Of a stretch of DNA of 64,000 nucleotides, positions 16,149 through 63,300 are shown piece by piece. Origin of the DNA: Bacillus rhizoplanae. Its GTDB lineage: Bacteria; Bacillota; Bacilli; Bacillales; Bacillaceae_G. Both the position numbers and the translations under genes were made by a program. Each line of letters begins with the position of its first letter. Position 1 is the stretch's first letter. The stretch covers positions 124,001 to 188,000 of the forward strand of contig NZ_CAKJTI010000001.1 of NCBI RefSeq assembly GCF_917563915.1, read 5' to 3'. The notes beneath the pieces are model-generated. The model was given only the letters and a program-made list of their open reading frames with translations, searched no databases and was not told where the DNA came from.

Positions 16149-16193
16149 AAAATTAGAAAACTACTGTCCAAAGGGCAGTAGTTTTCTAATTTT
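16149..16193. terminator. Strong terminator after nin
   Basis: AAATTAGAAAACTACTG pairs with CAGTAGTTTTCTAATTT over about 17 pairs, then T run. It directly abuts the bcr1-like repeat. Confidence 0.88.
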
Positions 16194-16337
16194 TATCCCG
16201 TATTAACGGGCAGTAAGCCCCCCCTCACCGAAATTCAGAGAAAATCGAGGGGGCTTACTGCTAGCATGTACCCGATTGGTTCAACTAACCATCAGTGGGG
16301 GATGAAGAAAACCCCACTGATGAAAGTTTCACTTTAT
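16192..16337 (-). repeat. bcr1-like repeat, long form, fused to metE stop
   Basis: On the + strand it runs from TTTATCCCG to GTTTCACTTTAT. Internal arms include CCGATTGGTTCAACTAACC and the pair CATCAGTGGGG/CCCCACTGATG. Its last T (16337) is the first base of the metE stop complement, so metE ends TAA immediately before ATAAAGTGAAAC. Confidence 0.85.
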
Positions 16338-18628
16338 TATCGTGCATTTGTTTGCAAAAGTTGGCGAGCTTTTACAGCCGCCTTTACCATATGTTCTAAT
16401 GCAGGAATAACTTCTTCTGTTTTTCTTGTTTTTAAGCCGCAATCTGGATTAATCCAGAAATATTTTGGATCGCACACCTTTAATGATTGTTCTACAATTA
16501 CATACATTTCATCTATACTTGGAACACGTGGACTATGAATATCATATACACCAAGGCCAATTCCCTTTTCATATGGATTTTCTCTTAATGTATTGATAAA
16601 CTCCCCATGACTTCTTGATGTTTCAATAGAGATAACATCTGCATCAAGCTGACGGATTGCTTCAACGATATCTTCAAAGTTACTATAACACATATGAGTA
16701 TGAATTTGTGTTTCGTTTTCTACTGAAGAAGTAGAAAGGCGGAATGCTTGGACGGCCCATGTTAAATATGTGTCCCAATCTTTCTCTTTTAACGGCATTC
16801 CTTCGCGCAGTGCAGGTTCATCAACTTGAATAACACGAATACCAGATGATTCAAGTAAGTTAATTTCATGACGAAGTGCCAGTGCGATTTGATAAGCAAC
16901 TTCTTTTCTTGGAATATCGTTACGAACGAAAGACCAATTTAAAATTGTCACAGGACCAGTTAGCATACCTTTGACAACTTTATTGGTACAACTTTGTGCA
17001 AATACTGTTTCTTTTACTGTCATACCATCAATAAACGCAACGTCACCATAAATAACAGGAGGTTTCACACAGCGAGAACCGTATGATTGTACCCAGCCAT
17101 TTTTCGTAAAGGAGAAACCAGCAAGTTTTTCGCCGAAATATTCTACCATATCTGTTCGCTCAAATTCGCCATGAACGAGAACATCAAGACCAATTTCTTC
17201 TTGATATTGAATCCATTTTTTTGTTTCTTCTTCAATAAATCGTTCGTACTGCTCATTTGAGATGTCACCGCTACGCCATTGTTTTCTAGTTTGACGAACT
17301 TCTTGCGTTTGCGGGAAGCTACCGATTGTTGTTGTTGGAAGTAATGGTAGATTCAGAGCTTTTTGTTGTAAATTGTAGCGATCTTCAAATGAAAGAGGAC
17401 GAGAAAAGTCTTCTTCTTGTAATGCTGATAGTGTAGAGTGTACATCTTTGCGATTACGAGCTGCTGAAGTGCGAATTGTTTCGTGAACACTTCGGTATGT
17501 TTGTAATTCATCAGAAATACTTTCTGTTCCATGAACGAGAGCTTTTTGTAAAATAGTAAGTTCTTCTAATTTTTGATTTGCAAAAGCAAGCACATCGTAT
17601 AATTCGCTTACAAGGTGCGTTTCAGTTGTCTTGTCAACAGGTGTATGAAGTAAACTACAAGACGGTTGTACAATCCATTCTTTTGGTTGTATAGTTTCTT
17701 GTAATGTATGGAAAAGAGAAAGGATTTCATCCAGGTTTGCTCTCCAAATGTTACGGCCATCTATACAGCCAACACCTAATACTTTATTGGAAGGGAATCC
17801 ATGTTGTAGCAGGGCGCGCAAATTACCTTCTTTACCGTGTACAAAATCAAGTCCAATACCAGTGACCGGGAATGAAATAATCTCTTCATAGTTTTCTTCT
17901 ATACTATCAAAATACGTTTGCAGCATAATAGATATATTTGGAACAGCTTTACGAATCGTTTCATATAATTCTTTTGCTATACCAATTTCTTGTTTTGATA
18001 GGGATGTAAAGATTGGTTCATCAATTTGAACCCAGCGTACGCCAGCGTCTTGTAATTCTTGTAGCAATTGAATGTATGGCTGTATTAATTTTTGTAAAAT
18101 GTTTGTAAAATGTTCTTTTTTATAACCCTTTGCTAAGCTTAAAAACGTATATGGCCCTAATATTACAGGTTTACCATCAACGCCTAGTTCTTGTTTTGCT
18201 TCTTCATATAAACGAAGTGGACGATTCTCTTTAAGAGAAATATGTAAACCTTCCTCATATTCTGGAACGATATAATGATAATTTGTATTAAACCATTTCG
18301 TCATTTCACAAGCAACGTGATCTTTTGAACCGCGTGCCATACCAAAGTATACGTCAAGCTCCGATGTATACTTTGAAAAACGTGATGGGATAAATCCGAG
18401 CATACATGCTGTATCAAGGACATGATCATAATATGTAAAATCACCAATTGGGATGAGATCGATTCCCTTTTCTTGTTGTACTTTTACATGTTGAAGGCGA
18501 ATCTCTTTCATTTGTTTCAAAAATTGTTGTTCATCCACTTTGTTTGCCCAAAAAGCTTCTAAAGCTTTTTTCCATTCGCGATGTGATTCAATTCGCGGAT
18601 ACCCTAAGTTACTTGTTTGAATTGTCAT
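16337..18628 (-). CDS. metE: Cobalamin-independent methionine synthase MetE
   Basis: Transfers the methyl group of 5-methyltetrahydropteroyl-triglutamate to homocysteine. The 763-residue length is normal for the two-barrel enzyme. The zinc ligands are all present: His645 and Cys647 (THMCYS), Glu669 (IETSRS) and Cys730 (NPDCGLKTR). The N-terminal substrate region reads [18 protein letters not shown] in outline. GGGAGG precedes the ATG. Upstream lies a cobalamin riboswitch, so the gene is expected to be shut off when B12 is available for the B12-dependent enzyme MetH. Confidence 0.97.
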
Positions 18629-18769
18629 TGTGATTTCCTCCCTAAATATAAGTAAGCATTTCCGTTTACTCGGAAATGCCTTTAACGAAAAGTAGACATA
18701 GAAGAAGAAAATGCTCCTCTTTCGTTAAAAACACCTCCTCATCATCCGTGAGTCTATCAGTGCCGTTAA

Positions 18770-18932
18770 AATAGGCAGGTCTCCTGGCTCATGCATCAGC
18801 GATTTCTATCACCTTCCCGTTTTCACAGTGGTATATCGAAAGAAATCTCTGCACTTACAGTGGCGGGACCGCGCTGGATTTTCACCAAACTTCCCTTTTA
18901 AACACGAAATAAATCTTTTCGTGTACCTATCT
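18770..18932 (-). ncRNA. Cobalamin (B12) riboswitch controlling metE
   Basis: Read on the - strand the region contains the class I cobalamin aptamer signatures in order: GGGAAGTTTGGTGAAAATCC, GCGGTCCCGCCACTGT, and the B12 box AGCCAGGAGACCTGCC. P1 can form between ATAGG (18926-18930) and CCTAT (18771-18775). The expression platform would be the 140 bases to metE. These hold an AACGAAAG/CTTTTCGTT pairing and a GCATTTCCG/CGGAAATGC hairpin directly before the metE ribosome site. Confidence 0.93.
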
Positions 18933-19057
18933 CCTTTTGGAAAGGAATGTAACTAGCGTATATGATATTGAAACAAATTCTAACATAATATTTTAAATTT
19001 TGTCTACTATTTTAAAAAATGAATATTTCAAAAATTTAAAACCACCATTTAATTGCA

Positions 19058-19333
19058 CTAACATGAAAAATTTTCTAAATGCCACCACCAATGTGATGAT
19101 GGGTATGTATGGGAGAGGTTATAGTAGTGAGACTGTATACGGTTATATATATCGTGAGCATGATGAAAGAGTAAGCGGTCATAGGAGAGTAGTTCTAGTT
19201 GTTCATTTGGATGTAATGTATGAGATTGAAAAGCAATTTCACTGCGAAGAATTAGTATGTATAAGATTTGTTTTTGTAAATAAGAATGGTAGTATACAGA
19301 AAATCCATATTGTTTAATTAAATTATCCTTCAT
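19058..19333 (-). CDS. Hypothetical His/Tyr-rich small protein (91 aa)
   Basis: A frame starting MKDNLIKQYGFSVYYHSYL and ending in a His/Trp cluster (SSHWWWHLENFSC). It is chosen over the overlapping + strand frame because AAAGGAGGTG stands 11 bases before the ATG. I recognise no family. The AAA of its Shine-Dalgarno is the end of a short bcr1-like repeat. No terminator is obvious before the riboswitch region downstream. Confidence 0.5.
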   Translation of the reverse strand: MKDNLIKQYGFSVYYHSYLQKQILYILILRSEIAFQSHTLHPNEQLELLSYDRLLFHHAHDIYNRIQSHYYNLSHTYPSSHWWWHLENFSC

Positions 19334-19347
19334 AAGGTGTCACCTCC

Positions 19348-19402
19348 TTTATCCCGCTATTTGCGGGCAGTAAGACCCCCACTGATGGAAGTTTCACTTT
19401 AT
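19348..19402 (-). repeat. bcr1-like repeat, short form, abutting a Shine-Dalgarno
   Basis: + strand TTTATCCCGCTATTTGCGGGCAGTAAGACC ... GTTTCACTTTAT in outline, 55 bp with both ends intact. On the - strand its terminal ATAAA merges into AAAGGAGG of the 91-aa gene. Confidence 0.85.
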
Positions 19403-19487
19403 ATATTCGTATTGTAATGAAAAGGGGAAGAGGTTACAAAAAAGAAAAAAGGAAAAAAACGCTTAAGAAAATCCATTTTCATGAATA

Positions 19488-19516
19488 CAAAAAACAGTCA
19501 CTCCTGGGTGACTGTT
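19488..19516 (-). terminator. Terminator of the padR gene
   Basis: AACAGTCACC/GGGTGACTGTT-type stem; on the - strand it is followed by TTTTTTG. Confidence 0.8.
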
Positions 19517-19523
19517 TCGATGT

Positions 19524-20084
19524 TTAATTATCTAACCCTGTATGGATTTCTGAAAGTTTTCCTTCTAGTGCGTCTTTATAAAGTTGTTTCAGCCAACGAA
19601 ATTCAACAGAAGCATGATCAATAACATTTTCCAAAATATAAAGCTGTGCACGAGGAATGCTAGTTTTATTATTTATATATATGCTTTGCATCGTTGTTAT
19701 AAATGTCTGTGTTTCTTCAATTTTCTTTTTAAGAATCGGCACAATGCATTGATTGCCACCGAAATGACTGAAAGAAAGCCCGGTATAGATTGGTTTATAT
19801 ATATGATTTTTCGCTTGAAATTGTTCGAGTAAAAGAGTATGAAAAAGTCCTTTTCCTTTTTCTGTAATATGATAAATTGTTTTATCCGGACGATTTGTAT
19901 CACGTATGATATGCGTAACAGCGATAGCTTCCTGTTTTTCTAGCTGCTCGAAGGCGTAATATAAAGACCCCTTTGCATATTTAATATAACAATCCATTTG
20001 TCTTTCTTTCATAATGTGTTGCACTTCGTAAGGGTGTTTCTCTCCTTCAAGAAGTAAACCAAGAATGACTAATTTCATGCTCAT
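19524..20084 (-). CDS. PadR-family transcriptional regulator
   Basis: The 186-residue protein opens with a PadR winged helix (LVILGLLLEGEKHPYEVQHIMKE; GSLYYAFEQLEKQEAI) and has the C-terminal helical dimerisation part of the PadR/Vir_act_alpha_C type. It sits 78 bases downstream of an MFS exporter on the same strand, a common pairing in which the regulator represses the pump. GGAG about 10 bases upstream supports this start. The exporter promoter carries a 12-base palindrome that could be its operator. Confidence 0.8.
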   Translation of the reverse strand: MSMKLVILGLLLEGEKHPYEVQHIMKERQMDCYIKYAKGSLYYAFEQLEKQEAIAVTHIIRDTNRPDKTIYHITEKGKGLFHTLLLEQFQAKNHIYKPIYTGLSFSHFGGNQCIVPILKKKIEETQTFITTMQSIYINNKTSIPRAQLYILENVIDHASVEFRWLKQLYKDALEGKLSEIHTGLDN

Positions 20085-20162
20085 CTTGCTTCAACTCCAA
20101 TAGCATTAAACTACTAAAATAAGTATATTCTCCTCTTCATCAAGGAGAGGGAGAGAAGAATG

Positions 20163-21698
20163 TTAACTAACTTGTTTTTGTTTCTTGTTTGTTGGTACAA
20201 TTAGTCGCTCTTTTCCCATTAATAAGATGCATATAATGCTAAGGGCTGCAGGAATAAGTGCCCATAAAAATGTGTCAGCGATAGAGGTTGCTAGTGCATG
20301 TTTAATACCATCTAAAATTTGTGGCGGTATTTTCTCAGTCGCATTTGGAGATAATAAGAAACTTGTATCGCCGCCTTTTGGAGCCATCTTTGCTAGTTCT
20401 GGCGGGAAAACAGATTTTAGTTGATCTGTAAATACATGATTTTGAATCGTACCAAAAATTGTTACACCAAGTGTCATACCAAGTGAACGGAAGAAAGAAT
20501 TTGTTGATGTCGCAGAACCTCGTTCTCTTATACTTAAATTATGAATAGAAGCCATACTTAAGACAGAGAAGGAAAACCCGACGCCAAATCCAGCTAAAAT
20601 CATAAAGACTGTAATCATTGTACGTGACGTATCGACTGTTAAAGTACTTAATAAATACATACCAAGAATAAAGAAAATACCAGAGATCATCATAATGTTA
20701 CGGTAACTTGTACGAGTTGATAACTGTCCACCTATTTGGCTTCCAATAACAGACCCTACCATCATCGGTGTTAAAATTAATCCAGCATTTGCTGCGGATC
20801 CACCAAGAACGCCTTGGATGAAAAGTGGAATGTACACTGTACAAATAATAAATGTTGCACCGTATAAGAAGGCAACGCCTTGACTTGCTGCAAATAAACG
20901 TTTTCTGAATAAATGGAAAGAAATAATAGGTTCTTCCACTTTTCGTTCAATAAAGAAAAAGATAATCATCATAATAGCAAACGTAGCAAATAAGCTCACA
21001 ATTACATTTGAATCCCAAGCATACTGTTTACCTCCGAGTTCTAAAGCAAACATGAGGCAAACAATACCAATAATTAAAGTAACAGCACCTGCCCAATCAA
21101 TTTTTTGTTTACTATATTGTAAAGATTCTTTATAGTATTTTGTAATTAAAAAGAGCGAGATAATCCCTAATGGAATATTAATATAAAATACCCAGTGCCA
21201 GTTAATATAGTCAGTAATATAAGCACCTAACAGCGGTCCAAACACACTTGACGTTCCAAAAACAGCTCCAAATAGTCCTGTCATTTTACCGCGTTTTTCT
21301 GCTGGGAAAATATCATACATAATTGTAAATGCGATTGGCATAAGAGCACCGCCGCCAATTCCTTGAATTGCACGGTATACACTTAATTGTTCAATGCTAG
21401 ATGCAGTGCCGCAAAGTATTGAACCAGTTAGAAAGAGAAGTAATCCTCCTATGTAAAAACGTTTACGTCCGTACATATCTGATAGTTTTCCGAAGATAGG
21501 CATTCCGGCCATTGTAGCTACCATATAGGCAGAAGTGACCCATACAAATTTATCAAAGCCGCCTAAATCACCTACAATAGTAGGCATTGCAGTAGCAACA
21601 ATTGTGTTATCCATTGCTGCCAGTAGTATTCCCAGTAGCAATCCTGTTACAACCAATTTTGTGTTACTTGCTTGCTTTTGAGTTATTTGTTCCTCCAA
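20163..21698 (-). CDS. MFS drug:H+ antiporter, DHA2 (14-TM) family
   Basis: A 511-residue EmrB/QacA-type exporter. Family motifs include MDNTIVATAMPTIVGDLGG after helix 1, GKLSDMYGRKR between helices 2 and 3, and GAVFGTSSVFGPLLGA (motif C, antiporter). Helices extend to a short basic C-terminus. The start is TTG at 21698 because AAAGGAGG sits 7 bases before it; the ATG three bases further upstream is out of frame. Substrate cannot be told from sequence. It is paired with the PadR regulator. Confidence 0.85.
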   Translation of the reverse strand: MEEQITQKQASNTKLVVTGLLLGILLAAMDNTIVATAMPTIVGDLGGFDKFVWVTSAYMVATMAGMPIFGKLSDMYGRKRFYIGGLLLFLTGSILCGTASSIEQLSVYRAIQGIGGGALMPIAFTIMYDIFPAEKRGKMTGLFGAVFGTSSVFGPLLGAYITDYINWHWVFYINIPLGIISLFLITKYYKESLQYSKQKIDWAGAVTLIIGIVCLMFALELGGKQYAWDSNVIVSLFATFAIMMIIFFFIERKVEEPIISFHLFRKRLFAASQGVAFLYGATFIICTVYIPLFIQGVLGGSAANAGLILTPMMVGSVIGSQIGGQLSTRTSYRNIMMISGIFFILGMYLLSTLTVDTSRTMITVFMILAGFGVGFSFSVLSMASIHNLSIRERGSATSTNSFFRSLGMTLGVTIFGTIQNHVFTDQLKSVFPPELAKMAPKGGDTSFLLSPNATEKIPPQILDGIKHALATSIADTFLWALIPAALSIICILLMGKERLIVPTNKKQKQVS

Positions 21699-21733
21699 GC
21701 ATAACCCTCCTTTGTATATCAACAATAAATTAT

Positions 21734-21762
21734 ATTATAGTCAAATTTGACCAAATGATAAA
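21734..21762 (-). promoter_or_regulatory. Exporter promoter with palindromic operator
   Basis: On the - strand a perfect -10 TATAAT (21734-21739) is preceded directly by the palindrome GTCAAATTTGAC (21740-21751) within a 17-base spacer; the -35 (TTTATC) is poor. Repressor control is inferred. The remaining sequence to 22,158 shows no gene I can support. Confidence 0.5.
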
Positions 21763-22158
21763 TAAATTTTTTTCGGCAAAATTATTTTGTCGTACATATG
21801 TACTTTTTAGTCAAAGATCACAAACATATACATATAAATTATTTAGTGGGTATATATGTGAAAAAATATGCTATTGGTTACTTATTATAAAAACTGTAGA
21901 AATGCAGAAATGTAAAATATTTTTTTAAAACATATTATTGAAAATGATTCATAATATAGGAAGTGACGAAAGGACATGGAGCTTACTTATAAGAATTAGA
22001 GAGGACAGAGAACTGTTTATGTGTTGTTATACAATATAAAGCAAATTAAAAAATACTAGAATGAGAAACAATATATAAAGTGAAAATTTTATCAATAGGA
22101 AAGTTTTTCATATGCCACTGTTAGTATAAGATAAAAGAATACATGAAACTTTATCAGT

Positions 22159-22186
22159 AAAGCTGTACATGATGTGCAGCTTTTTT
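22159..22186 (+). terminator. Orphan terminator
   Basis: AGCTGTACAT/ATGTGCAGCT stem followed by TTTTTT. No coding region precedes it on the + strand within 400 bases. Confidence 0.7.
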
Positions 22187-22994: not shown

Positions 22995-23127
22995 TTTATC
23001 CCACCTCAAGATTTAGAGAGAAACAAAGAAGATAGGTGGGGGATAACTGCTGGCATGCGCCCGATTGGTTCAATTAACCATTAGTGGGGGATGAAAAAGA
23101 CCCCCACTGATGGAAGTTTCATTTTAT
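22995..23127 (-). repeat. bcr1-like repeat, long form, fused to a stop codon
   Basis: + strand TTTATCCCACCTCAAG to GTTTCATTTTAT, with arms CCCACCT/AGGTGGG, TTGGTTCAATTAACCA and CCCCCACTGATGG. The CGGGCAGTAAG segment at the TTTATCCC end is missing. The final T is part of the stop codon of the holin-like gene. Confidence 0.85.
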
Positions 23128-28367: not shown

Positions 28368-30476
28368 ATGGAAACGGTGAAGAGTAGTCTTATAAACTTG
28401 AATGATACTGCTTATTATAACAATCGTGAATTAAGTTGGCTTGCTTTTAATGAGCGAGTGTTACAAGAAGCGCAAGATGACTGTAATCCATTATTAGAGA
28501 GATTAAAGTTTATCAGTATCTTCAGCTCAAATTTAGATGAGTTTTTCATGGTGCGTGTTGCAGGATTGAAAGATCAGGTAAGAGTTGGGTTTAATCAACC
28601 AGAAAATAAAGCTGGACTAACGCCGAAACAACAATTGGGGAAAATTTCAACTAAGGCACATGAATTAATGAAAGTACAGTATGATACTTATCAAAACATT
28701 GTACTTCCTGCGTTGAAGGAAGAAGGAATAGAATTGTTGTCTTTTCACGATTTAACGAAAGAACAACGAGAATTTATTGAAGAATATTTTGATGAGCAGA
28801 TTTTTCCGGTGTTAACACCTGTGGCAATTGATGCGTATCGACCGTTTCCTATGTTATTGAATAAAAGCTTAAATTTAGCTGCTATTTTATATGATGAAAG
28901 ACAAACAGAAGAAGAAAATCGGACTAAGCTTGGCATCGTTCAAGTTCCATCATTATTAGAACGTTTTATTTTTTTACCAAATGAAGATAATAGGCAAAAA
29001 TTCATTTCTTTAGAAGATGTGATTAGTAACTTTACTCATAAATTATTTACAGGATATATGGTATCTTCTGTTACGCGTTTTCGCATTACACGTAATGCGG
29101 ATTTGACTATTCATGAAGAAGGTGCACGTGATTTATTAAAAGTAATTGAGAAAGAATTAAAAAAACGAAAATGGGGCGCAGCGGTTCGTTTAGAGGTAGG
29201 AACAGATAACTTGGATGAAAGAGTATTATCTCTATTATATGAAGCGTTAGAAGTAAAAGATGAAGATGTATATATGATTGATGGCCCGCTTGATTTAACA
29301 TGTTTATTTGCGCTTTATAAGAAGTTAGCATCTGTATATGACAATTTAATCTATCCAGCACTTATTCCACAGCCACCTCAAGATTTAGGTGATGAAGAAG
29401 ATGTGTTTGAAAAAACTCTAGAACAAGATATTCTATTGCATCATCCATTTGAATCATTTCAACCTGTCATTGATTTTGTAGCAGACGCAGCAGAAGATCC
29501 TGATGTGTTAGCAATTAAACAAACATTATACCGTGTAAGTGGAGATTCACCTGTTATTAAAGCTTTAAAAACAGCAGCAGAAAATGGGAAGCAAGTGACA
29601 GTACTTGTGGAATTAAAAGCTCGTTTTGATGAAGAAAATAACGTTCACTGGGCAAAAGAATTAGAAAAAGCAGGTTGTCATGTTATTTATGGTGTTAGCC
29701 ATTTGAAAACACATAGTAAAATTACGCTTGTTGTAAGACGAAAATACGGGAAGATTGAACGCTTTGTCCATTTAGGTACAGGTAATTATAATGATGCAAC
29801 AGCGAAATTATATACTGATTTTGGATACATTACATCACGTAAAGATTTTGGTATTGATGCGACAAACTTTTTTAATTATTTAAGTGGATATACAATGAAA
29901 CCTCATTTTCATCAATTGTCCGTTGCCCCGTTCGATATTCGTCAGCAATTTATTGAACTCATTGATGAAGAGATTCGTTATCATAAACAATATGGAAATG
30001 GTTATATTATTGCGAAAATGAATTCGTTAACAGATAAGCCGCTTATTCAAAAGTTATATGAAGCATCGCAAGCCGGTGTGAAAGTTGATCTCATTGTAAG
30101 GGGAACTTGCTGTTTACGTCCAAAAATTTTAGGTGTAAGTGAAAATATTCGTGTCATTAGCGTGGTAGGCCGTTATTTAGAACATAGCCGCATTTATTAT
30201 TTTCACCATAATGGAGAAGAAAAATTATTTTTATCGTCAGCCGATTGGATGACGCGCAATATGGAAAAACGTGTAGAAATTTCATTTCCAATTTTAGGGT
30301 TTGATATGAAAACACGAATTAAAGATATATTGCAACTTATTTTAGATGATAATGTAAAAGCACGTGAACAAAATGAGTATGGAGAATATTACTATGTAGC
30401 AAGTGATGATGCGCAAAAAATTGAAAGTCAAATGAAACTCTTTCAAATGGCATATACAAGCACAGAGGAAGAATAA
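28368..30476 (+). CDS. ppk: Polyphosphate kinase 1
   Basis: A 702-residue Ppk1 that polymerises the gamma phosphate of ATP into polyphosphate. N domain (ELSWLAFNERVLQEAQD), head domain, then two phospholipase-D-like halves. The histidine motif KTHSKITLVVRR and the VHLGTGNYND, LSSADWMTRN motifs are present. GGGGG precedes the ATG. The stop codon TAA (30474-30476) lies within the ATAAAGTGAAAC start of a bcr1-like repeat, and no other terminator follows, so the repeat forms the 3 prime end of the mRNA. Confidence 0.95.
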   Translation: METVKSSLINLNDTAYYNNRELSWLAFNERVLQEAQDDCNPLLERLKFISIFSSNLDEFFMVRVAGLKDQVRVGFNQPENKAGLTPKQQLGKISTKAHELMKVQYDTYQNIVLPALKEEGIELLSFHDLTKEQREFIEEYFDEQIFPVLTPVAIDAYRPFPMLLNKSLNLAAILYDERQTEEENRTKLGIVQVPSLLERFIFLPNEDNRQKFISLEDVISNFTHKLFTGYMVSSVTRFRITRNADLTIHEEGARDLLKVIEKELKKRKWGAAVRLEVGTDNLDERVLSLLYEALEVKDEDVYMIDGPLDLTCLFALYKKLASVYDNLIYPALIPQPPQDLGDEEDVFEKTLEQDILLHHPFESFQPVIDFVADAAEDPDVLAIKQTLYRVSGDSPVIKALKTAAENGKQVTVLVELKARFDEENNVHWAKELEKAGCHVIYGVSHLKTHSKITLVVRRKYGKIERFVHLGTGNYNDATAKLYTDFGYITSRKDFGIDATNFFNYLSGYTMKPHFHQLSVAPFDIRQQFIELIDEEIRYHKQYGNGYIIAKMNSLTDKPLIQKLYEASQAGVKVDLIVRGTCCLRPKILGVSENIRVISVVGRYLEHSRIYYFHHNGEEKLFLSSADWMTRNMEKRVEISFPILGFDMKTRIKDILQLILDDNVKAREQNEYGEYYYVASDDAQKIESQMKLFQMAYTSTEEE

Positions 30477-30627
30477 AGTGAAACTCTCATCAGTGGATGT
30501 TTCATTCTTTATTGTATGGAAAATTCTCATCAATTGGGCACATATTAGCAATTAACTCCTACCTATCTTTTGGGATTTCTTAAAGTCTCGAGATGGGAGT
30601 TTTACTGTTCAAAAGTAGCGGGATAAG
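30473..30627 (+). repeat. bcr1-like repeat, long degenerate form, contains ppk stop
   Basis: Begins ATAAAGTGAAACTCTCATCAGTGG and ends AGCGGGATAAG; the middle is diverged but keeps CTACCTATCTT and CTCGAGATGGGAG. It begins one base before the ppk TAA. Confidence 0.75.
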
Positions 30628-34347: not shown

Positions 34348-34503
34348 TTTGTTTTTATCATAAATTGGTAATAGTGACAACTATGATAAGAATGCTGTCT
34401 ATCGTTGTAAAGATTTTACGAACGAAAGGCACTCTGTCATTATATAATCATTGCTACAATGAATATTAGAAGGACAAGCTCTTTTTACAAGGAGGGTGCG
34501 AGA

Positions 34504-34995
34504 ATGAGAAAGTATGGGATTTGGATTGTGCTATTTCTTTTTGCTGCATTTGTAATTGGACAAAGTGTAACAACTGTTCTTGGAAAAGAAGAAACAAAAA
34601 TTGATCAAAATGAAATATTTGAAACGATTCGAAAGGGATATGAAGCACAATTTTCTATTCGTGGTAAGCGACTTTCAATGGATAAAATGATTGATACATT
34701 ATCCCCTTATTTCACAGATAATTTCCTTCAAGTTTTTACGGATGAAAATGGTCAGGATGTAAAACGAAGTGCTCAATATTTATTGCCTACAAATGAAGCG
34801 CCATTTACTTTTTCATCAAAAACAAAAATTGTATACAATCAAGAGCATGATTTGTTATATGTGTATGAACATAATATTACAAATGACAAATATCAAATTA
34901 TCACATTGCAAAAAGATGGTTATAAATGGAAACTAGCAGGGTATCACGAAAATAAACAGCTTTTATCTGAGATTAGACAATTTGAAAAAGAATAA
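34504..34995 (+). CDS. Exported or anchored protein, DUF3993-like
   Basis: A 163-residue protein with an uncleaved or signal-type N-terminal helix (about 4-22) and a mixed alpha/beta body (SIRGKRLSMDKMIDTLSPYFT; YVYEHNITNDKYQIITLQKDGYKWKLAGYH). I associate it with DUF3993 proteins, with moderate confidence; function unknown. AAGGAGGG precedes the ATG at 34504. Its stop TAA (34993-34995) is the start of a bcr1-like repeat. Confidence 0.7.
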   Translation: MRKYGIWIVLFLFAAFVIGQSVTTVLGKEETKIDQNEIFETIRKGYEAQFSIRGKRLSMDKMIDTLSPYFTDNFLQVFTDENGQDVKRSAQYLLPTNEAPFTFSSKTKIVYNQEHDLLYVYEHNITNDKYQIITLQKDGYKWKLAGYHENKQLLSEIRQFEKE

Positions 34996-35045
34996 AATGA
35001 AATTTCCATCAGTGGGGGTCTTATTGTCCGTTAATGCGGGATAAA
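34992..35045 (+). repeat. bcr1-like repeat, short form, contains a stop codon
   Basis: ATAAAATGAAATTTCCATCAGTGG to GCGGGATAAA, 54 bp. Its first TAA is the stop of the preceding gene. Its last ATAAA is the first ATAAA of the next copy. Confidence 0.85.
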
Positions 35046-35095
35046 GTAAAACTTTCATTAATGCGAGCTTACTGTCCGCGGGTAACGTGGGAAAA
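35041..35095 (+). repeat. bcr1-like repeat, short form, tandem copy
   Basis: ATAAAGTAAAACTTTCATTAATG to GTAACGTGGGAAAAG, a more diverged copy directly joined to the previous one. It runs into the terminator at 35092. Confidence 0.75.
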
Positions 35096-36048: not shown

Positions 36049-36199
36049 ATAAAGTGAAACTCCCATCAATTATCCCCCACTTATCTTCTTCAAATTCTTT
36101 ACTTATGGTTAGTTGAAGCAACTGGAATCTTACGGGGAGTTATTTTCCGAATATATAATCTTGAGATGGGAATTTTACTGCCCACAAATAGCGGATAAA
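36049..36199 (+). repeat. bcr1-like repeat, long form, abutting a Shine-Dalgarno
   Basis: ATAAAGTGAAACTCCCATCAATT to ATAGCGGATAAA, 151 bp; internal TCCCCCACTTATCTTC and GGTTAGTTGAAG are recognisable. Its final AAA is part of AAAGAGGTGAG before the zinc-ribbon gene. Confidence 0.82.
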
Positions 36200-43088: not shown

Positions 43089-43242
43089 TTTATCCAGCAT
43101 TAACGTGCAGTAAGCCCCACACCTCAAGATTCAGAGAGAAGCGAGAAAGATAGGTGAGGATAACTGCTAGCATGTGCCCGATTGGTTCAACTTATCATCA
43201 GTGGGATATGAAAAAAAATCACTGATGGAAGTTTCACTTTAT
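43089..43242 (-). repeat. bcr1-like repeat, long form
   Basis: + strand TTTATCCAGCATTAACGTGCAG to GTTTCACTTTAT, 154 bp; both internal hairpins (CACCTCAAG...AGGTGAGG and CCGATTGGTTCAAC) retained. Confidence 0.85.
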
Positions 43243-43262: not shown

Positions 43263-43413
43263 TTGATCCTAATCAAACGGCAGTAAAGCCTTTACATCCA
43301 GTTTTTGAAGAGGCAAAGAATTGATAAGAGAATAACTGCTCATAAGAGCTTGATTCGTTCAACTAACCATCACTGGAGGGATGAAAAAACCACTGATGGA
43401 AGTTTCACTTTAT
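43263..43413 (-). repeat. bcr1-like repeat, second long copy upstream of ktrC
   Basis: + strand from AAACGGCAGTAAAGCC to GTTTCACTTTAT; the start is degenerate but AACTGCTCATAAGAGCTTGATT and CAACTAACCATCACTGG are kept. It ends about 29 bases before ktrC. Confidence 0.75.
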
Positions 43414-47341: not shown

Positions 47342-47389
47342 AAATTAGTCTGTTTTCATCAATTTCAGTGAAAACAGACTAATTTTTTA
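47342..47389 (+). terminator. Terminator of ykrA
   Basis: AAATTAGTCTGTTTTCA/TGAAAACAGACTAATTT perfect stem with T run that merges into the repeat TTTAT. Confidence 0.9.
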
Positions 47390-47441
47390 TCCCGCTATTA
47401 GCGGGCAGTAAAGGTTCTCACTGATAGAAGTTTCATTTTAT
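47386..47441 (-). repeat. bcr1-like repeat, short form, fused to def stop
   Basis: + strand TTTATCCCGCTATTAGCGGG to GTTTCATTTTAT, 56 bp. The def stop codon (complement of TTA 47438-47440) lies within its terminal TTTAT. Confidence 0.87.
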
Positions 47442-47992
47442 CTTTCTAAAGGTGTTGCATTTTCTGGAATGATAAATGGATTTTCCTTATTAATATGGTC
47501 ATAAAACATGACACCGTTTAAGTGATCAATTTCATGCTGGAAAACAATTGATGGTAAACCTTTTAAACGTAGTTTCACTTCTTCACCGTCTATTGTTGTT
47601 CCTTTTACAGTAATGCGAGTGTAACGAGGCACATAGCCAGGAATTTCACGATCCACTGACAGACAACCTTCGCCACCTGATAAGAATGTGCGTTCTACAG
47701 AATGACTGATAATTTTCGGGTTAAACAAAGCGTAGCTATATAATGTCCCATCTCTATCCGTTACATGAACAGCAATCATTCTTTTAGAAACACCGATTTG
47801 AGGGGCTGCTAAACCAATTCCAGGACGTAAATTATATTTTTCAACCATTTCGGGGTTTTGACTGTTAATAACAAATTCAATCATCTTTCGTAATATATGT
47901 ACATCTTCTTCGCTTGCTGGTAGAGCTATCTCTTCAGCCACTGCTTGTAAAATAGGATCTCCTTCACGAATCACATCATTCATTGTAAGCAT
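47438..47992 (-). CDS. def: Peptide deformylase
   Basis: A 184-residue class II deformylase that removes the formyl group from nascent peptides. Motifs GIGLAAPQIG, EGCLSV (metal Cys) and HEIDHLNGVMF (catalytic Glu and metal His) are intact. The length equals the B. cereus enzyme. The ATG at 47992 is 9 bases from AAAGGAG; an in-frame TTG two codons upstream is less likely. The stop codon is inside the repeat end. Confidence 0.95.
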   Translation of the reverse strand: MLTMNDVIREGDPILQAVAEEIALPASEEDVHILRKMIEFVINSQNPEMVEKYNLRPGIGLAAPQIGVSKRMIAVHVTDRDGTLYSYALFNPKIISHSVERTFLSGGEGCLSVDREIPGYVPRYTRITVKGTTIDGEEVKLRLKGLPSIVFQHEIDHLNGVMFYDHINKENPFIIPENATPLER

Positions 47993-48047
47993 ATGCAATC
48001 GCTCCTTTCATCTTTAGTCTACCAAAGGTTATGAAAAAAGTCATGAC

Positions 48048-53937: not shown

Positions 53938-54080
53938 TTTATCCCGCATTAACGGGCAGTAAGACCCACCTCAAGATCCAGAGAGAAGTGAGGAAGATAG
54001 GTGGGAGAAACTGCCCGTAAAAGCCCGATTGCTTCAACTAACCATGAGCAGAAAACGTACTGATGGAAGTTTTGTTTTAT
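53938..54080 (-). repeat. bcr1-like repeat, long form
   Basis: + strand TTTATCCCGCATTAACGGGCAG to GTTTTGTTTTAT, 143 bp, with CCCACCTCAAG/AGATAGGTGGG and TTGCTTCAACTAACCAT parts. Confidence 0.87.
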
Positions 54081-55449: not shown

Positions 55450-55513
55450 AAAGACAGAAAGTTAAGCGGTTACAAAAGGTTTTGGGGATTACAATAATAG
55501 GGGGAATTTAAAA

Positions 55514-55645
55514 ATGGGAACTATCGTATGTCAAATTTGTGAGAGCACAATTGCACATTTTGAGGATGAAAAAGTAACGGTATTATACGGAAAATGCAGC
55601 TCTAAATGTGATTGTGAGCATAAAGAGCATACTAAAGCCCAATAA
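55514..55645 (+). CDS. sr1P: SR1P, GapA-binding peptide
   Basis: A 43-residue peptide (MGTIVCQICESTIAHFEDEK then VTVLYGKC) matching SR1P, which in B. subtilis binds GapA and promotes its interaction with RNase J1. Cysteines occur in CQIC and CSSKCDC, suggesting metal binding. The C-terminal extension (EHKEHTKAQ) is longer than the 39-residue B. subtilis peptide. GGGGGAA precedes the ATG. Its proposed partner RNase J1 is encoded 10 kb upstream. Confidence 0.88.
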   Translation: MGTIVCQICESTIAHFEDEKVTVLYGKCSSKCDCEHKEHTKAQ

Positions 55646-55650
55646 ATAAG

Positions 55651-55678
55651 AAAGCGCCTGCATATGCAGGCGCTTTTT
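55651..55678 (+). terminator. Terminator of the SR1-like RNA
   Basis: AAAGCGCCTGCATATGCAGGCGCTTTTT, a perfect palindrome with T run. It overlaps the tgl stop codon. Confidence 0.92.
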
Positions 55679-56507
55679 AGTGAATTGAAGTTGTATGACC
55701 AATTGTTGCAATAATGGCATCATCTCGAATTGGAATGAGATCAAGTTGTGTTTGTATTTTCTTCGCAGAAGCAAATTGACTCATCATACGGCTATCTATA
55801 CGTGTTAGAAAGTCTGTTAAGTATGCTGATAAAAAAGCGAAAGGAATACGTCGTTGATTAAGCAAATCAATAATTTGATTTTCTGTTTTTACACCGACTC
55901 CATGCCCATAATAAAAGAAATTTCCTAAGTAAATTGCATTTTCTCCTTGCCATTCAATTGTTGCTGGGTTTACTTGTGGGTTTTTAAAATAAACAAGGTC
56001 ACCAGGAACGATTTCTCCTCCGGTTTTTGTGATTAGTTTCAAATCCTTATCATAGTCCCACGTATATAAAAGTAAGTTTGCAAATAAGCGATTAAATGTT
56101 TCTTCATCGTATAGTGCTAATAGTGACTTATAGAAGATAATAATCATCGCAGTTGCACATTCTGTTCCGTATTTTTTACCATTTACAAAAATATCACGAA
56201 TTGCGAAAGAGGGTAACACATTAGGGCGAAGTTGAAATCCTCCTAAATGAGTGCGTTCCCAAAATTCAGGATTACAGTAAGATTGCCTAAATGTACGGAA
56301 TTGGAGTCCACTTTGAAATAACTCTAGAGCAGAAGTGATGATGTAAACACGAATGTTTATATCAAAATTTAACTCGTCTAATGTTTGAAAGTTATATACT
56401 TCTTGATTTCCTGTCATTATCTCTAAAATTTTTTGTTTTTCCGAAAAGAATGGCTCGGTTTCATTTTTTATATATGGATGTACAATGGAACGCCCAATTA
56501 CAATCAT
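55677..56507 (-). CDS. tgl: Spore coat transglutaminase Tgl
   Basis: A 276-residue protein-glutamine gamma-glutamyltransferase that cross-links spore coat proteins. The catalytic Cys117 is in [10 protein letters not shown], and the [15 protein letters not shown] and [17 protein letters not shown] segments are typical. It is expected to be expressed late in sporulation from the mother cell (SigK). The Shine-Dalgarno GTGGGATC is moderate. The stop overlaps the terminator of the convergent SR1-like RNA. Confidence 0.9.
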
Positions 56508-58267: not shown

Positions 58268-58556
58268 CTTATACACCCCTTCTTCATTATTATTAATATT
58301 TATTAGTTTTGTTTTATGTTTATCCTGTTTCACTAAACAATAGTAGAGAGAAGGTCTACGCTACTAATTGAATGATCACTTTATGTTCTACAAAACAAAA
58401 GCATTATATCACCTATATTGGAAGATGTATAGAAAAATAATAATGGTAATTATCATTTTTTTTACGCAGGAAGGTCAATGCGTAAAAAATAAGAAATAGT
58501 GTATAATGCAAAGAGTGGGGCAAGTAAGAACGAAATGGAATAAATGAGGTGTTATC

Positions 58557-58826
58557 ATGGAATATCAATATCCAATTGACTATGATTGGTCAACGGAAGA
58601 AATGGTTGCAGTAATTAAATTTTATGAAGCAATTGAGCAAGCTTATGAGAAAGGGTTGAAGAGAGAAAATCTTATGAGTTTGTATCGCCATTTTAAAGAG
58701 ATTGTACCAGGGAAAGCAGAAGAAAAGAAAATCGACAAAGAATTTCAAGAAGTGAGTGGTTATTCCATTTATCGAACAATTCAAAAGGCGAAAAATTTAG
58801 AAGAAGAAGATATCGTTAAAATGTAA
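58557..58826 (+). CDS. yktA: YktA, UPF0223 family
   Basis: An 89-residue helical protein ([46 protein letters not shown]) of the UPF0223 family, function unknown. GAGGTG is 6 bases upstream of the ATG. Confidence 0.88.
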
Positions 58827-58872
58827 AAAAATTTTGAAAAATAGAACATGAAGTGTTATAATGGGATAACAA

Positions 58873-58908
58873 CAAAAAACGGACAATACATGTATTGTCC
58901 GTTTTGCT
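58873..58908. terminator. Bidirectional terminator yktA/yktB
   Basis: CAAAAAACGGACAATACATGTATTGTCCGTTTTG, a perfect palindrome with A/T runs on both sides. Confidence 0.93.
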
Positions 58909-59535
58909 TTATCGATTACAAATTTTATATAAAGGAAGGAGTGAGTATAACGTCGCTTCGACTTTTTTGATAAATTGTTCATCAGTAAGATTTGTAAACT
59001 CTTCTGGGGACATATGAACTCCTACTAATAACTCTGCTTTTTTTACGGTAGATAACCGCTCGATCATTTTCTGTAACTCTTCTAATTGAAGGGTATCATG
59101 TGATTTTACCTCAGGCTTAGTATGGTCAATGGACCAAACGAAATCATTTGGTATATTTGCTTTTAAATCATTTAAATGTTTTAAAAAGGCATGAGCCGTT
59201 TCCATTTTTTGTGGGCACTCATAAATTAAACCAAAGTATATAAAAGCATGTGTACCCCATAATCCAATTTGAAAATGTGGCAACATTTTATATCCGCGTT
59301 TATTTGTTGAAAATGCAACCCAAGTATCGTTTGGTGGATTGACTTTACGACGTGCGTGTTTTGCTACATGATAGAAAAAGGATTCACCAGTTTCTTTCGT
59401 TAAGAAATGAGCAAATTGTTCGCCGAGAGCTTCTAACTTCGGATGAATATTCATTTTAATTGCAGTCATTCTTTCTTCCAGGCCATCCACAGAGAATACT
59501 GTAAAATCTTTTTCTTTGAAAGTTTTTGATGTCAT
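58909..59535 (-). CDS. yktB: YktB, UPF0637 family
   Basis: A 208-residue protein of the UPF0637 family ([53 protein letters not shown] in outline). Function unknown. GTTGGAGGA precedes the ATG. Convergent with yktA. Confidence 0.9.
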
Positions 59536-59709
59536 GGTTGTTCCTCCAACTCCTAGTTTGTTTCTATTCTAGCATAGCTTGTACAATTCATAAAAAAGAT
59601 GCTTATAAAAAAATTTCAGATAAAAATACAAATTAGTTGCATAGATGATTTATCCCACATAATATAGTATAAAACAAAAAATCAGAAAATTAAGTAAATT
59701 TCAGGTTGA

Positions 59710-59744
59710 GGGCAAACGAATATTGGGAGGGGGCAAACGAATAT
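59710..59744 (+). repeat. 21-bp direct duplication at ykzI start
   Basis: GGGCAAACGAATAT occurs at 59710-59723 and 59731-59744 with a 21-base period; the second copy ends in the ykzI ATG. It looks like a small tandem duplication of the ribosome-site region. Confidence 0.7.
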
Positions 59745-59931
59745 GAGACAGGTAATTAATGCGTTAAAAAGAACAGATGCGGAGAAGAGAATTCCGGTGT
59801 TACGTTTAGAGTTAGATTATGAATTAGCAACTTTATATGATGCGATGATGGAAAATGATGATATGAAAAAAGAAGAGTGTATGAAAAAATTAGAAGTGTT
59901 AAGACTTGAAATGATTCGGTTAGAGGCGTAA
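59743..59931 (+). CDS. ykzI: YkzI-like small protein
   Basis: A 62-residue helical, charged protein (RQVINALKRTDAEKRIPVLRL; KKEECMKKLEVLRLEMIRLEA). The position between yktB and yktC matches ykzI. Function unknown. GGGAGGGGG is 9 bases before the ATG. Confidence 0.75.
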   Translation: MRQVINALKRTDAEKRIPVLRLELDYELATLYDAMMENDDMKKEECMKKLEVLRLEMIRLEA

Positions 59932-59960
59932 TAATAGTGTATGTATAAAAATTTAGTTGG

Positions 59961-59990
59961 TGCGAACCTTATAAAGGGTTCGTTTTTTCT
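59961..59990 (+). terminator. Terminator of ykzI
   Basis: GCGAACC/GGGTTCG stem followed by TTTTTT. Confidence 0.85.
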
Positions 59991-60019
59991 GTGAACTGTA
60001 CAGATCGGAGTGTTTAAAT

Positions 60020-60808
60020 ATGCAAGAGGTATGGAAAGAAATTGATGCGTATGCAAAACAATGGATAAAAGAAGCTGGACAGCACCTGGTTTCATCGTTG
60101 AAGCAATCTCTTATTATCGAAACGAAGTCAAATGCCTCGGATTTAGTAACGAATATGGATCGGGAAATTGAACAGTTTTTTATTGGGAAAATTAAAGATA
60201 CCTTTCCGGAACATTATATTCTTGGAGAAGAAGGATATGGAGATGAGTTAGCTTCATCAGATGGGATTGTGTGGTTAATTGATCCGATTGATGGTACGAT
60301 GAATTTTGTTCATCAAAAGCGAAATTTTGCAATTTCAATCGGCATCTATGAGAACGGTATCGGAAAAATTGGTCTCGTATATGATCCAGTTCATGATGAG
60401 TTATATCATGCGCAAAAGGGTGCAGGAGCATTTTGTAATGATATAGAAATTCCGTTGTTACAGCCGAATCAAGTGTCCTTAGGAGTTATTGCTGTAAATG
60501 CAACGTGGCTTACTGATAATCCTCGTCTTGATATGAGAAAGATGGCACAGCTTGTAAAAAAGGCAAGAGGAACACGTTCGTATGGTTGTGCAGCACTTGA
60601 AATGGTATATGTAGCGACAGGACGATTGGATGCATATGTGACGCCGCGTTTGTCTCCGTGGGATTTTGGCGGAGGAATGATTATTGTAGAAGAAGTTGGA
60701 GGCAAAGTAACAACCTTTACTGGAGAGTCGCTTCGAATTATTGAGAAGAGTAGCGTTTTGGTTGCAAGGCCGGGTGTGTACGAAGAGATATTACAATATG
60801 TACAATAA
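60020..60808 (+). CDS. yktC: Inositol monophosphatase family protein YktC
   Basis: A 262-residue SuhB-type phosphatase. Metal motifs: GEEGYG (Glu), WLIDPIDGTMNFVH and SPWDFGGGMIIVEEVGG. It hydrolyses inositol-1-phosphate and related sugar phosphates. CGGAG is 9 bases before the ATG. Confidence 0.92.
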   Translation: MQEVWKEIDAYAKQWIKEAGQHLVSSLKQSLIIETKSNASDLVTNMDREIEQFFIGKIKDTFPEHYILGEEGYGDELASSDGIVWLIDPIDGTMNFVHQKRNFAISIGIYENGIGKIGLVYDPVHDELYHAQKGAGAFCNDIEIPLLQPNQVSLGVIAVNATWLTDNPRLDMRKMAQLVKKARGTRSYGCAALEMVYVATGRLDAYVTPRLSPWDFGGGMIIVEEVGGKVTTFTGESLRIIEKSSVLVARPGVYEEILQYVQ

Positions 60809-60831
60809 GAGTATAAAATCTATAGAAAAAA

Positions 60832-60872
60832 CAAAAAAGTAAGAGGCATAGAAAATCGCTTCTTACTTTTTG
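60832..60872. terminator. Terminator yktC/ylaF
   Basis: AAAAAGTAAGAGGC/GCTTCTTACTTTTT stem between convergent genes. Confidence 0.85.
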
Positions 60873-60875
60873 CTG

Positions 60876-61055
60876 TTATTGTAGTTTACGCATTTTTCTT
60901 TTTGTCATAAATCCGTATCCGATTGTAAAGATTGTACCGAGAATACAAATCATCACACCGATTGGACTTTTCTCAGCAATCATAATCCCGATACCAATCA
61001 TAAAAATAACGCCAATGATAGCTGTTAATAAAAAGCGATATTGAATCTGTTCCAT
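60876..61055 (-). CDS. ylaF: YlaF-like two-helix membrane protein
   Basis: A 59-residue protein with two hydrophobic helices (FLLTAIIGVIFMIGIGIMI; IGVMICILGTIFTIGYGFM) and a basic tail, matching DUF5325/YlaF. GGAGGG is 8 bases from the ATG at 61055. Upstream of typA and divergent from it. Confidence 0.8.
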   Translation of the reverse strand: MEQIQYRFLLTAIIGVIFMIGIGIMIAEKSPIGVMICILGTIFTIGYGFMTKRKMRKLQ

Positions 61056-61195
61056 ATATTTCACCCTCCAGTTTCATTGTACTTTCACAAAAGTGAGAAT
61101 ACAACTATATTTTCATTCTTGATCTTATTTTGATTGCCATTGTATCCCTTCGCTCTTATAATAGAGAAGGATTAAAAAGACACTAGGAGTTGGAC

Positions 61196-63040
61196 ATGTT
61201 GAAAAAACGAGAAGATTTACGAAATATAGCAATTATCGCCCACGTTGACCATGGTAAAACAACACTTGTTGACCAATTATTACGTCAAGCGGGGACGTTC
61301 CGTGCAAATGAGCACGTAGAAGAACGTGCAATGGATTCAAATGATTTAGAAAGAGAACGCGGTATTACAATTTTAGCGAAAAATACAGCGATTCATTATG
61401 AAGATAAAAGAATTAACATTTTAGATACACCAGGACACGCTGACTTCGGTGGTGAAGTAGAGCGTATCATGAAAATGGTTGACGGTGTTTTACTTGTTGT
61501 TGATGCATATGAAGGCTGTATGCCACAAACACGATTCGTTTTAAAGAAAGCGTTAGAGCAAAACTTAACTCCAATCGTAGTTGTAAACAAAATTGACCGT
61601 GACTTTGCTCGCCCAGATGAAGTAGTTGACGAAGTAATCGACTTATTCATTGAACTTGGTGCAAGCGAAGATCAATTAGAGTTCCCTGTTGTATTTGCAT
61701 CAGCAATGAACGGAACTGCAAGCTTGGACTCAAACCCAGCAAACCAAGAAGAAAATATGAAATCATTATTCGATACAATCGTTGACCATATTCCAGCGCC
61801 AATTGATAATAGCGAAGAGCCACTTCAATTCCAAGTAGCGCTTCTTGACTATAATGATTATGTTGGTCGTATTGGAGTTGGACGTGTATTCCGCGGTACA
61901 ATGAAAGTAGGACAACAAGTTGCTTTAATGAAAGTGGACGGTAGTGTAAAACAATTCCGTGTAACAAAATTATTTGGGTATATGGGATTAAAACGTCAAG
62001 AAATCGAAGAAGCAAAAGCTGGAGACTTAATTGCAGTTTCTGGTATGGAAGACATTAACGTTGGTGAAACTGTATGTCCAGTTGAACATCAAGATGCACT
62101 TCCATTATTACGTATCGATGAGCCAACACTACAAATGACATTCCTAGTAAATAACAGCCCATTTGCAGGTCGTGAAGGAAAATATATTACATCTCGTAAA
62201 ATTGAAGAACGTCTTCGTTCCCAGTTACAAACAGATGTTAGTTTACGTGTAGATAATACAGAATCTCCTGATGCTTGGATTGTATCTGGACGTGGAGAAT
62301 TACATTTATCTATCTTAATCGAGAATATGCGTCGTGAAGGATATGAATTACAAGTATCTAAACCAGAAGTAATTATTAAAGATATCGACGGCGTAAGATG
62401 TGAGCCGGTAGAACGTGTACAAATTGACGTGCCGGAAGAGTATACAGGTTCTATTATGGAATCAATGGGCGCACGTAAAGGTGAGATGCTTGATATGGTG
62501 AATAACGGAAACGGTCAAGTCCGTCTTACGTTTATGGTTCCAGCACGTGGCTTAATCGGTTATACAACAGAATTCTTAACATTAACACGTGGATATGGTA
62601 TCTTAAACCATACATTTGATAGCTATCAACCAGCACACGCTGGCCAAGTTGGCGGACGTCGTCAAGGTGTTCTTGTATCATTAGAAACAGGAAAAGCAAC
62701 ACAATACGGTATTAGTCAAGTAGAAGACCGTGGTGTTATTTTCGTAGAACCAGGTACAGAAGTGTATGCAGGTATGATTGTTGGAGAACATACACGTGAG
62801 AACGATTTAACAGTTAACGTTGTAAGAATGAAACAACAAACGAACATTCGTTCTGCGACAAAAGATCAAACGGCAACAATGAAAAAACCACGTCTTATGA
62901 CATTAGAAGAATCACTTGAGTACTTAAACGAAGATGAATTCTGTGAGGTAACACCAGAATCAATCCGTCTTCGCAAAAAGATTCTTGATAAGAGTGAGCG
63001 CGAAAGATCTGCTAAGAAAAAGAAATCTGTAGAAGCGTAA
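61196..63040 (+). CDS. typA: Ribosome-associated GTPase TypA (BipA)
   Basis: A 614-residue translational GTPase active in ribosome assembly and stress growth. G1 [10 protein letters not shown]2 and G3 ([13 protein letters not shown]), G4 NKID, then domains 2, 3 and the BipA C-terminal domain ([29 protein letters not shown]). The ATG at 61196 is 6 bases from AGGAG. Confidence 0.95.
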
Positions 63041-63047
63041 AAAATGT

Positions 63048-63082
63048 AAGCTGCCTTTTTATAAAAAGGCAGCTTTTTTTTT
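63048..63082 (+). terminator. Terminator of typA
   Basis: AAGCTGCCTTTTT/AAAAAGGCAGCTT stem with nine T. Confidence 0.92.
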
Positions 63083-63169
63083 GAAGTTATATTTTTCGAA
63101 AATTTAATCTTTTATCTAGACAGCACTTTTTTTGCAAGGTACTCTTATAGTAGGCGACATATTAAGTGA

Positions 63170-63300
63170 AACTCCCATAAGTAGGCATTGATGGTGAGTG
63201 GAATGAATTGGGCTCTTATGAGCAATTATCTTCCATCTATCTTCTTTGATTCTTTTGTGTGTTGAGATGGAGGACGTATTGTCCGTTCGCGCTAGATAAA
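63170..63300 (+). repeat. bcr1-like repeat, long form, abutting ylaH Shine-Dalgarno
   Basis: ATTAAGTGAAACTCCCATAAGTAG to CGCGCTAGATAAA, about 131 bp, diverged centre with GAATTGGGCTC and TTCCATCTATCTTC. Its final AAA starts AAAGGGGGGAAG, the ylaH ribosome site. Confidence 0.78.

Follow-up and report, generated by a model that had tools for sequence, protein, structure and literature searches.

Contacts between bcr1-like elements and gene stop codons in a Bacillus rhizoplanae window and in related Bacillales

Why does a dispersed repeat begin at the very base where a gene ends? A 64,000-nt stretch of the Bacillus rhizoplanae genome (contig NZ_CAKJTI010000001.1, positions 124,001 to 188,000; hereafter, the window) raises this question. 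It holds 13 left ends of small repeats that we call bcr1-like, and we presume their core to be that of bcr1 (full length ~155 bp). Five of the 13 touch a same-strand stop codon. The initial annotation had pointed to these five contacts and offered two causes, target choice at stop codons or a function of the element at the 3′ end of the message. Here we show that the pattern is real, exceeds by about fivefold what the terminal pentamer ATAAA as a target would give alone, and extends beyond the window to several related genera. As its cause we favour a third possibility, that insertions at stop codons are kept because they do no harm.

Stop contact in the window and in relatives

The touched genes are metE, an SPP1-type holin gene, ppk, a DUF3993 gene and def, all contacted in sense orientation at exactly the positions first reported (table). 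At metE and the holin gene a single base is common to the stop codon and the ATAAA terminus (d=-1); at ppk, DUF3993 and def the TAA is contained in ATAAA (d=-4), again as had been described. The element-end motif quoted at the time is inexact for one copy, since that at DUF3993 reads ATAAAATGAAAT and differs by one letter; the five contact positions stand. The other eight copies make no same-strand stop contact; they include the second member of a tandem, at 35041. Among the other non-coding ATAAA sites of the window, which serve as controls, 13 of 147 touch a stop, compared with 5 of 13 copies (odds ratio 6.4, one-sided Fisher p=0.0075, or p=0.0051 without the tandem unit), so that the five contacts exceed chance. 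The holin gene and one other open reading frame (ORF) were added to the window gene list by hand, and the numerator is 4 without the holin. With the strict motif applied to relatives, six window copies are recovered; one of them touches a stop, vs 16 of 157 controls (p=0.49). ATAAA is present at both ends of nine of the 13 copies, while in the other four one end is decayed or was not found; seven copies are 133-154 bp long, five are short forms of 52-56 bp, and one has no clear right end.

A count of stop contact against random ATAAA sites had been proposed for B. cereus group genomes. We made it in relatives, because our samples yielded no B. cereus group genome: the best def identity was 77% in one family, of which 19 genomes were covered, and 76% among the matches listed from 397 genomes sampled from the order. 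Genes in the relatives came from a purpose-written, simple codon-score caller, and controls were all other non-coding ATAAA sites of the same DNA. We excluded copies and controls lying closer than 200-300 nt to the end of a stretch, flank duplicates, control sites resembling element right ends, and the 19 of 327 copies located in coding sequence. For Marseille-Q3522 and a mixed set of other genomes ("others"), stretches were 8 kb or less.

In the pooled relatives, 52 of 308 non-coding copies touched a stop, compared with 415 of 8128 controls. After stratification by genome and replication strand, the 52 contacts stand against 14.3 expected (odds ratio 4.9, p=3e-25). The enrichment is uneven between genomes. 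Contacts were made by 11 of 28 copies in Terrilactibacillus laevilacticus (controls 46/870; odds ratio 11.6), 11 of 39 in T. tamarindi (75/1305), 9 of 39 in Gottfriedia (74/1532), 7 of 48 in Cytobacillus citreus (62/1000) and 10 of 41 in the others (53/956). The corresponding figures were 4 of 89 in B. chungangensis (controls 86/2051, 4.2%) and 0 of 24 in Marseille-Q3522 (19/414). Thus, the excess that the proposed count was meant to reveal appears in the pooled data. It fails to appear in Marseille-Q3522 and, as long as strand is ignored, in B. chungangensis. With stratification, B. chungangensis and C. citreus together show 11 contacts vs 4.8 expected (odds ratio 2.7, p=0.006).

The first five of these sets (T. 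laevilacticus, T. tamarindi, Gottfriedia, C. citreus and others; 195 copies, 5663 controls) we refer to as the enriched sets. Within them the odds ratio climbs with gene confidence, from 4.5 to 5.8 to 6.7; for B. chungangensis and Marseille-Q3522 it is 0.67 to 0.82, which is not significant. The requirement for ATAAA cannot create the excess, because only about one in ten left ends (37 of 383) lacks it. When 28 touched genes were scanned, the products of intact housekeeping genes among them, MetE, PPK, Def, LpdA, RlmN, GreA, SerS and NrdR, matched their families nearly end to end.

The position of the excess is sharp. In the enriched sets, ATAAA sites that contain the TAA of a stop are 5.9-fold over-represented among copies (38 copies vs 188 controls), positions -1 to +2 about 3-fold (10 vs 92), and sites 3-40 nt downstream of the stop 1.5-fold (17 vs 326); TAA-containing and 3-40 nt sites differ at Fisher p=4e-6. 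A constraint from operons or ribosome-binding sites was dropped as the origin of this spike, which persists where the next same-strand start is more than 60 nt away (p=3e-5; for starts at 60 nt or less, with few copies, p=0.12). Element right ends, evaluated for the 150 of 195 copies in which they are recognised, fall 0-20 nt past opposite-strand stops in 10 of 150 cases vs 149 of 5663 controls (~2.5-fold), and part of the excess therefore reflects a general tolerance near gene ends.

The shared orientation of element and gene, which the initial annotation had treated as informative, is indeed common to all five window copies. It is no separate evidence, because TAA is present on only one strand of ATAAA. 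Control sites are biased in the same way: of 8330 non-coding ones in the relatives, 417 contact a stop on the same strand and 69 one on the opposite strand. In the relatives no copy contacts an opposite-strand stop with its left end; with their right ends, two come within 0-2 nt of such a stop.

Element anatomy and mobility

The elements share the layout ATAAA-[A/G]TGAAACTTYCATCAGTGGGG ... CTTACTGCCCGTTAA..CGGG-ATAAA. In the relatives a right end was recognised within 2.5 kb of the left end in 105 of 127 cases, giving lengths of 53-951 bases. A complete inner reading frame of at least 50 aa is present in 18 of the 105 two-ended elements; the longest, 129 aa, belongs to L080, an element of 951 bases on the minus strand with a long insert that resembles part of a group II intron. 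The longest frame elsewhere is 100 aa. Terminal inverted repeats, expected of a miniature inverted-repeat transposable element (MITE) derived from a DDE transposon, were not seen on inspection: the left end GTGAAACTTCC is unlike the reverse complement of the right end, CCCGC. In many Bacillales genera (L001-L120) there are bcr1-like elements whose internal hairpin modules are interchangeable; in Marseille-Q3522, C. citreus and B. chungangensis the left end is fixed and the inserts vary.

An alignment of 29 sequences yields six predicted helices, and 9 of 25 consensus pairs are changed on both sides. Counted on a structure predicted from that same alignment, four of five covariation measures lie above all 500 shuffles, and the fifth (further pair types) was reached by 14 of 500. 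The left end also supplies stop codons of its own: the TGA of the element's GTGAAAC ends ten called genes, eight of them in the frame ATA AAG TGA. The left end thus carries stops in two of three frames.

For non-touching copies, empty sites with a single ATAAA were found opposite L242 (in L318), L252 (in L267), L267 (in L252) and L194 (in L186); at these four sites the filled form carries ATAAA at both ends. A copy in L268 that touches a stop has a decayed right end, and the corresponding stop in its sister species (L243) shows a single ATAAA. Other orthologous sites fit less well: two copies, the one at def in L244 and one in L274, stand opposite sister-species sites that have no ATAAA.

The orientation of the copies bears on how they move. 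We counted non-touching copies on stretches longer than 13 kb in which GC skew and gene direction agree. The strand carrying ATAAAGTGAAAC lies on the lagging side for 64 of 71 copies in B. chungangensis and 26 of 29 in C. citreus, which places TTTAT on the template of the lagging strand. IS200/IS605 elements share this placement, and excerpts of PMC6006769 give a lagging-strand mechanism for the family. From this common fork orientation of ~90% of the copies in two genomes we infer single-strand insertion of the IS200/IS605 kind. Element orientation in genomes G002 and G003 runs in long stretches along contigs, consistent with replication-fork polarity, and does not do so in Terrilactibacillus.

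Bcr1-like ends are missing from 27 of 30 loci with Y1 transposase matches, covered with ~1.5 kb flanks; L136, L144 and L149 have such ends near broken Y1 fragments. In L136 (Marseille-Q3522, 448-2935) the broken fragment has an unpaired left end on one side and a complete short element on the other. L134 (T. laevilacticus, ~1467-1998) holds a RAYT-like Y1 transposase gene with CAGG(C/T)ACCGCAAAAAGACATTTT repeats nearby, apparently a REP-like system (REP, repetitive extragenic palindromic) separate from bcr1.

Retention as a proposed cause, and its rivals

These elements are small, rich in hairpins, mobile and devoid of a transposase-sized reading frame, and their insertion site is ATAAA (TTTAT on the complementary strand), as the four empty sites of non-touching copies show. 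We propose that they move as single-stranded DNA through an IS200/IS605-like enzyme that would act in trans. Where this ATAAA holds a gene's own stop, the left copy of the pentamer would preserve the UAA and the right copy the downstream sequence. Protein, terminator and next gene would thus be unaltered by the insertion. Such landings would be retained as harmless, and landings at most other ATAAA sites, within genes or promoters, would be purged. The rarity of insertions in coding sequence supports this: 19 of 327 copies are found there, compared with 16,520 of 24,850 control ATAAA sites. Support also comes from the intact housekeeping genes among those touched and from the enrichment of right ends past opposite-strand stops. 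The data suggest retention as the simplest cause of the enrichment, one that fits at least as well as target choice or a 3′-end function, and we favour it with about as much doubt as belief.

Several observations weigh against retention or the mobility that it presumes. An insertion 3-40 nt past a stop ought to be nearly as harmless as one at the stop itself, yet the enrichment of such sites is a fraction of that at TAA-containing sites; this is the fact that retention explains least well. Touching copies with a recognised right end are no more diverged than others by median best-hit identity, and age as an explanation of stop contact was dropped. To this are added the lack of contacts in Marseille-Q3522 and the control-level rate of B. 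chungangensis before strand is considered. The lagging-strand bias is absent in T. laevilacticus (9/18) and T. tamarindi (14/22) and weak in Gottfriedia (21/30). No intact Y1 gene lies between left and right bcr1-like ends in the 30 of 44 listed Y1 loci that were covered with ~1.5 kb flanks, a span that longer elements would escape, and Y1 or RAYT-like transposases were dropped as carriers of these ends.

The enrichment in relatives would also fit either of the two causes first proposed, which it does not separate, and the argument from orientation fails. The stronger of the two is that selection favours a copy right after the stop because it helps the gene, through mRNA stability, processing or termination. 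Such a benefit is possible, and we consider it clearly less probable than retention. It would account for an excess that peaks at the stop and is slight 3-40 nt beyond it, for the rise of the odds ratio with gene confidence and for the conserved predicted fold. It would be doubtful, in turn, in that sense copies at 3-40 nt also enter the 3′ untranslated region and are hardly enriched, and in that only bcr3 correlated with decay rate in the excerpts of PMC3446304. If selection for function were indeed the source of the stop preference, the element would be a mobile module working exactly at translation ends.

The recurrence of touched genes bears on such a function. The touched genes of T. laevilacticus include metE and def, as do those of the window, and greA (a recurrent 157-aa gene identified by family match) is touched in T. 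tamarindi and also in Metabacillus fastidiosus, there through the TGA that the element carries. When orthologous pairs were first counted, the motif was stricter and did not recover the window def copy; 3 of 617 pairs were touched on both sides (P=0.026-0.037), one of them through an inherited insertion. In a second run the motif was widened to admit that copy and the pair of Terrilactibacillus species was left out; among 498 reciprocal-best pairs, 3 were then touched on both sides vs 0.47-0.65 expected (P=0.016-0.030). These orthologous contacts in different genera speak for a 3′-end function, although the test is weak, the pairs having been noticed before it was made, and the greA stop in M. 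fastidiosus is a contact of another kind. Judged from the sequences, the recurrence is suggestive only. That the elements have been repeatedly recruited as a structured 3′-end module abutting the stop, with metE, def and greA hit independently across genera, we regard as unlikely. Separately, the two Terrilactibacillus species share, at L260 and L265, an element at the stop of an aminotransferase gene that is 97% identical between them; the insertion was probably inherited.

Active choice of stop codons by the insertion machinery, the other cause first proposed, would explain why touching copies are as young as others and why the stop preference persists after stratification by genome and strand. 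We think it unlikely. Enzymes that act on DNA are blind to reading frames, the 24 Marseille-Q3522 copies include no contact, and base preferences in the 12 nt on each side of non-touching copies predict only 0.96-1.03-fold at stop sites, a result on which an extended target motif within 12 nt was also dropped.

A related possibility is that the foot of a terminator hairpin is the target, stop contact arising since terminators start right behind stops. On inspection, the sequence to the right of the metE copy, of the def copy and of the DUF3993 tandem in the window opens with a hairpin. In the enriched sets a fold below -8 kcal/mol lies next to 57% of 35 touching copies with a known right end, compared with 41% of 310 control contacts, and non-touching copies in B. 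chungangensis and Marseille-Q3522 show such a fold in 28% of 94 cases vs 16% of 800 sampled controls. Hairpin-foot targeting was nevertheless dropped, because non-touching copies in the enriched sets show no hairpin excess (13% of 115 vs 17% of 800 sampled controls), and we hold it to be very improbable. The small window count, the two hand-added ORFs and the strict-motif result could point to chance, to gene-calling artefacts or to an effect of demanding an intact ATAAA. This is the least credible explanation of all: the genome counts exclude it as the main cause, given the significance in the relatives, an effect that grows with confident genes, and the small share of left ends that lack ATAAA.

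Distribution, known systems and other features

Excerpts of PMC6542083 describe the first BCR element as restricted to the B. cereus group. The elements examined here are not so restricted, since the same ends and core are present in other Bacillales. At least 120 stretches matched a left-end pattern that did not include ATAAA; among those listed none is titled as a B. cereus group species, and several are titled only Bacillus sp. The left-end motif TGAAACTTYCATCAGTGGGG occurs in 19 of the 397 genomes sampled from the order, and the reversed-pattern control in none of the 397. A Modestobacter contig (L016) and a Clostridia metagenome-assembled genome (L047, L116) among the matches may be contamination. 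Three non-cereus records in a plasmid collection and one locus among viral contigs (L151) also match. In the Klebsiella grimontii plasmid CP079755.1, positions 221561-221624 are 84% like the bcr1 left half, by transfer or contamination.

The elements resemble bcr1 in having TTTAT/ATAAA at both ends, a ~150 bp form, a fold and a mobile-like spread; they differ from it, as published, in their wider range. The TTTAT motif and MITE-like status of bcr1 are given in excerpts of PMC6542083 and PMC3446304, and the same excerpts contain no mention of stop contact or fork orientation. We found no description of stop contact by bcr1 in the literature searched; the original bcr1 papers lie outside it, and such a description may be in print.

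The nearest published parallel is that of GTAG-tagged REP termini, which supply stop codons to genes (excerpts of PMC3733652). Those repeats have another end sequence, and the stop there is TAG vs TAA here. On inspection, no short palindrome with GTAG at its foot is present at the element ends, which are ATAAAGTGAAAC and mostly CGGGATAAA. With non-autonomous elements derived from IS200/IS605 the bcr1-like elements share asymmetric ends, a hairpin at one end with a short target sequence beside it, and, in two genomes, the lagging-strand orientation bias; hairpins are predicted in them. They differ in that no intact TnpA gene has these ends among the 30 loci and in that Terrilactibacillus shows no strand bias.

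Table. Bcr1-like elements of the window and the genes that they touch
Feature	Position	Strand	Remark
bcr1-like element, 146 bp, ATAAA at both ends	16192..16337	-	left end shares one base with metE stop
metE (B12-independent methionine synthase), intact	16337..18628	-	stop 16339-16337
bcr1-like element, 133 bp, right end shortened	22995..23127	-	at stop of holin-like ORF
SPP1-type holin ORF, 76 aa	23127..23357	-	Holin_SPP1, E=7e-13; stop 23129-23127
ppk (polyphosphate kinase), intact	28368..30476	+	stop 30474-30476
bcr1-like element, ~154 bp, decayed right end (GGGATAAG)	30473..30626	+	ppk stop inside left ATAAA
DUF3993 gene	34459..34995	+	PF13158, E=1.3e-31; stop 34993-34995
short bcr1-like element, 54 bp	34992..35045	+	DUF3993 stop inside left ATAAA
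second, decayed unit of tandem behind DUF3993	35041-35092	+	
short bcr1-like element, 56 bp	47386..47441	-	def stop inside left ATAAA; then terminator-like hairpin (by inspection)
def (peptide deformylase), intact	47438..47998	-	stop 47440-47438
short bcr1-like element, 54 bp	9654..9707	+	off-stop, 180 nt downstream
short bcr1-like element, 55 bp	19348..19402	-	off-stop, 121 nt
bcr1-like element, 151 bp	36049..36199	+	off-stop, 98 nt
bcr1-like element, 154 bp	43089..43242	-	antisense to neighbours
bcr1-like element, right end unclear	43319..43413	-	left end 43413; lower bound is limit of repeat match
bcr1-like element, 143 bp	53938..54080	-	off-stop, 407 nt
decayed bcr1-like element (left end ATTAA), 140 bp	63161..63300	+	off-stop, 120 nt

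Two RNA family matches were also recorded in the window: a cobalamin riboswitch 5′ of metE, the gene that has an element at its stop (18757-18945, minus strand, 115.2 bits), and the SR1 antisense small RNA (55451-55683, plus strand, 61.8 bits).

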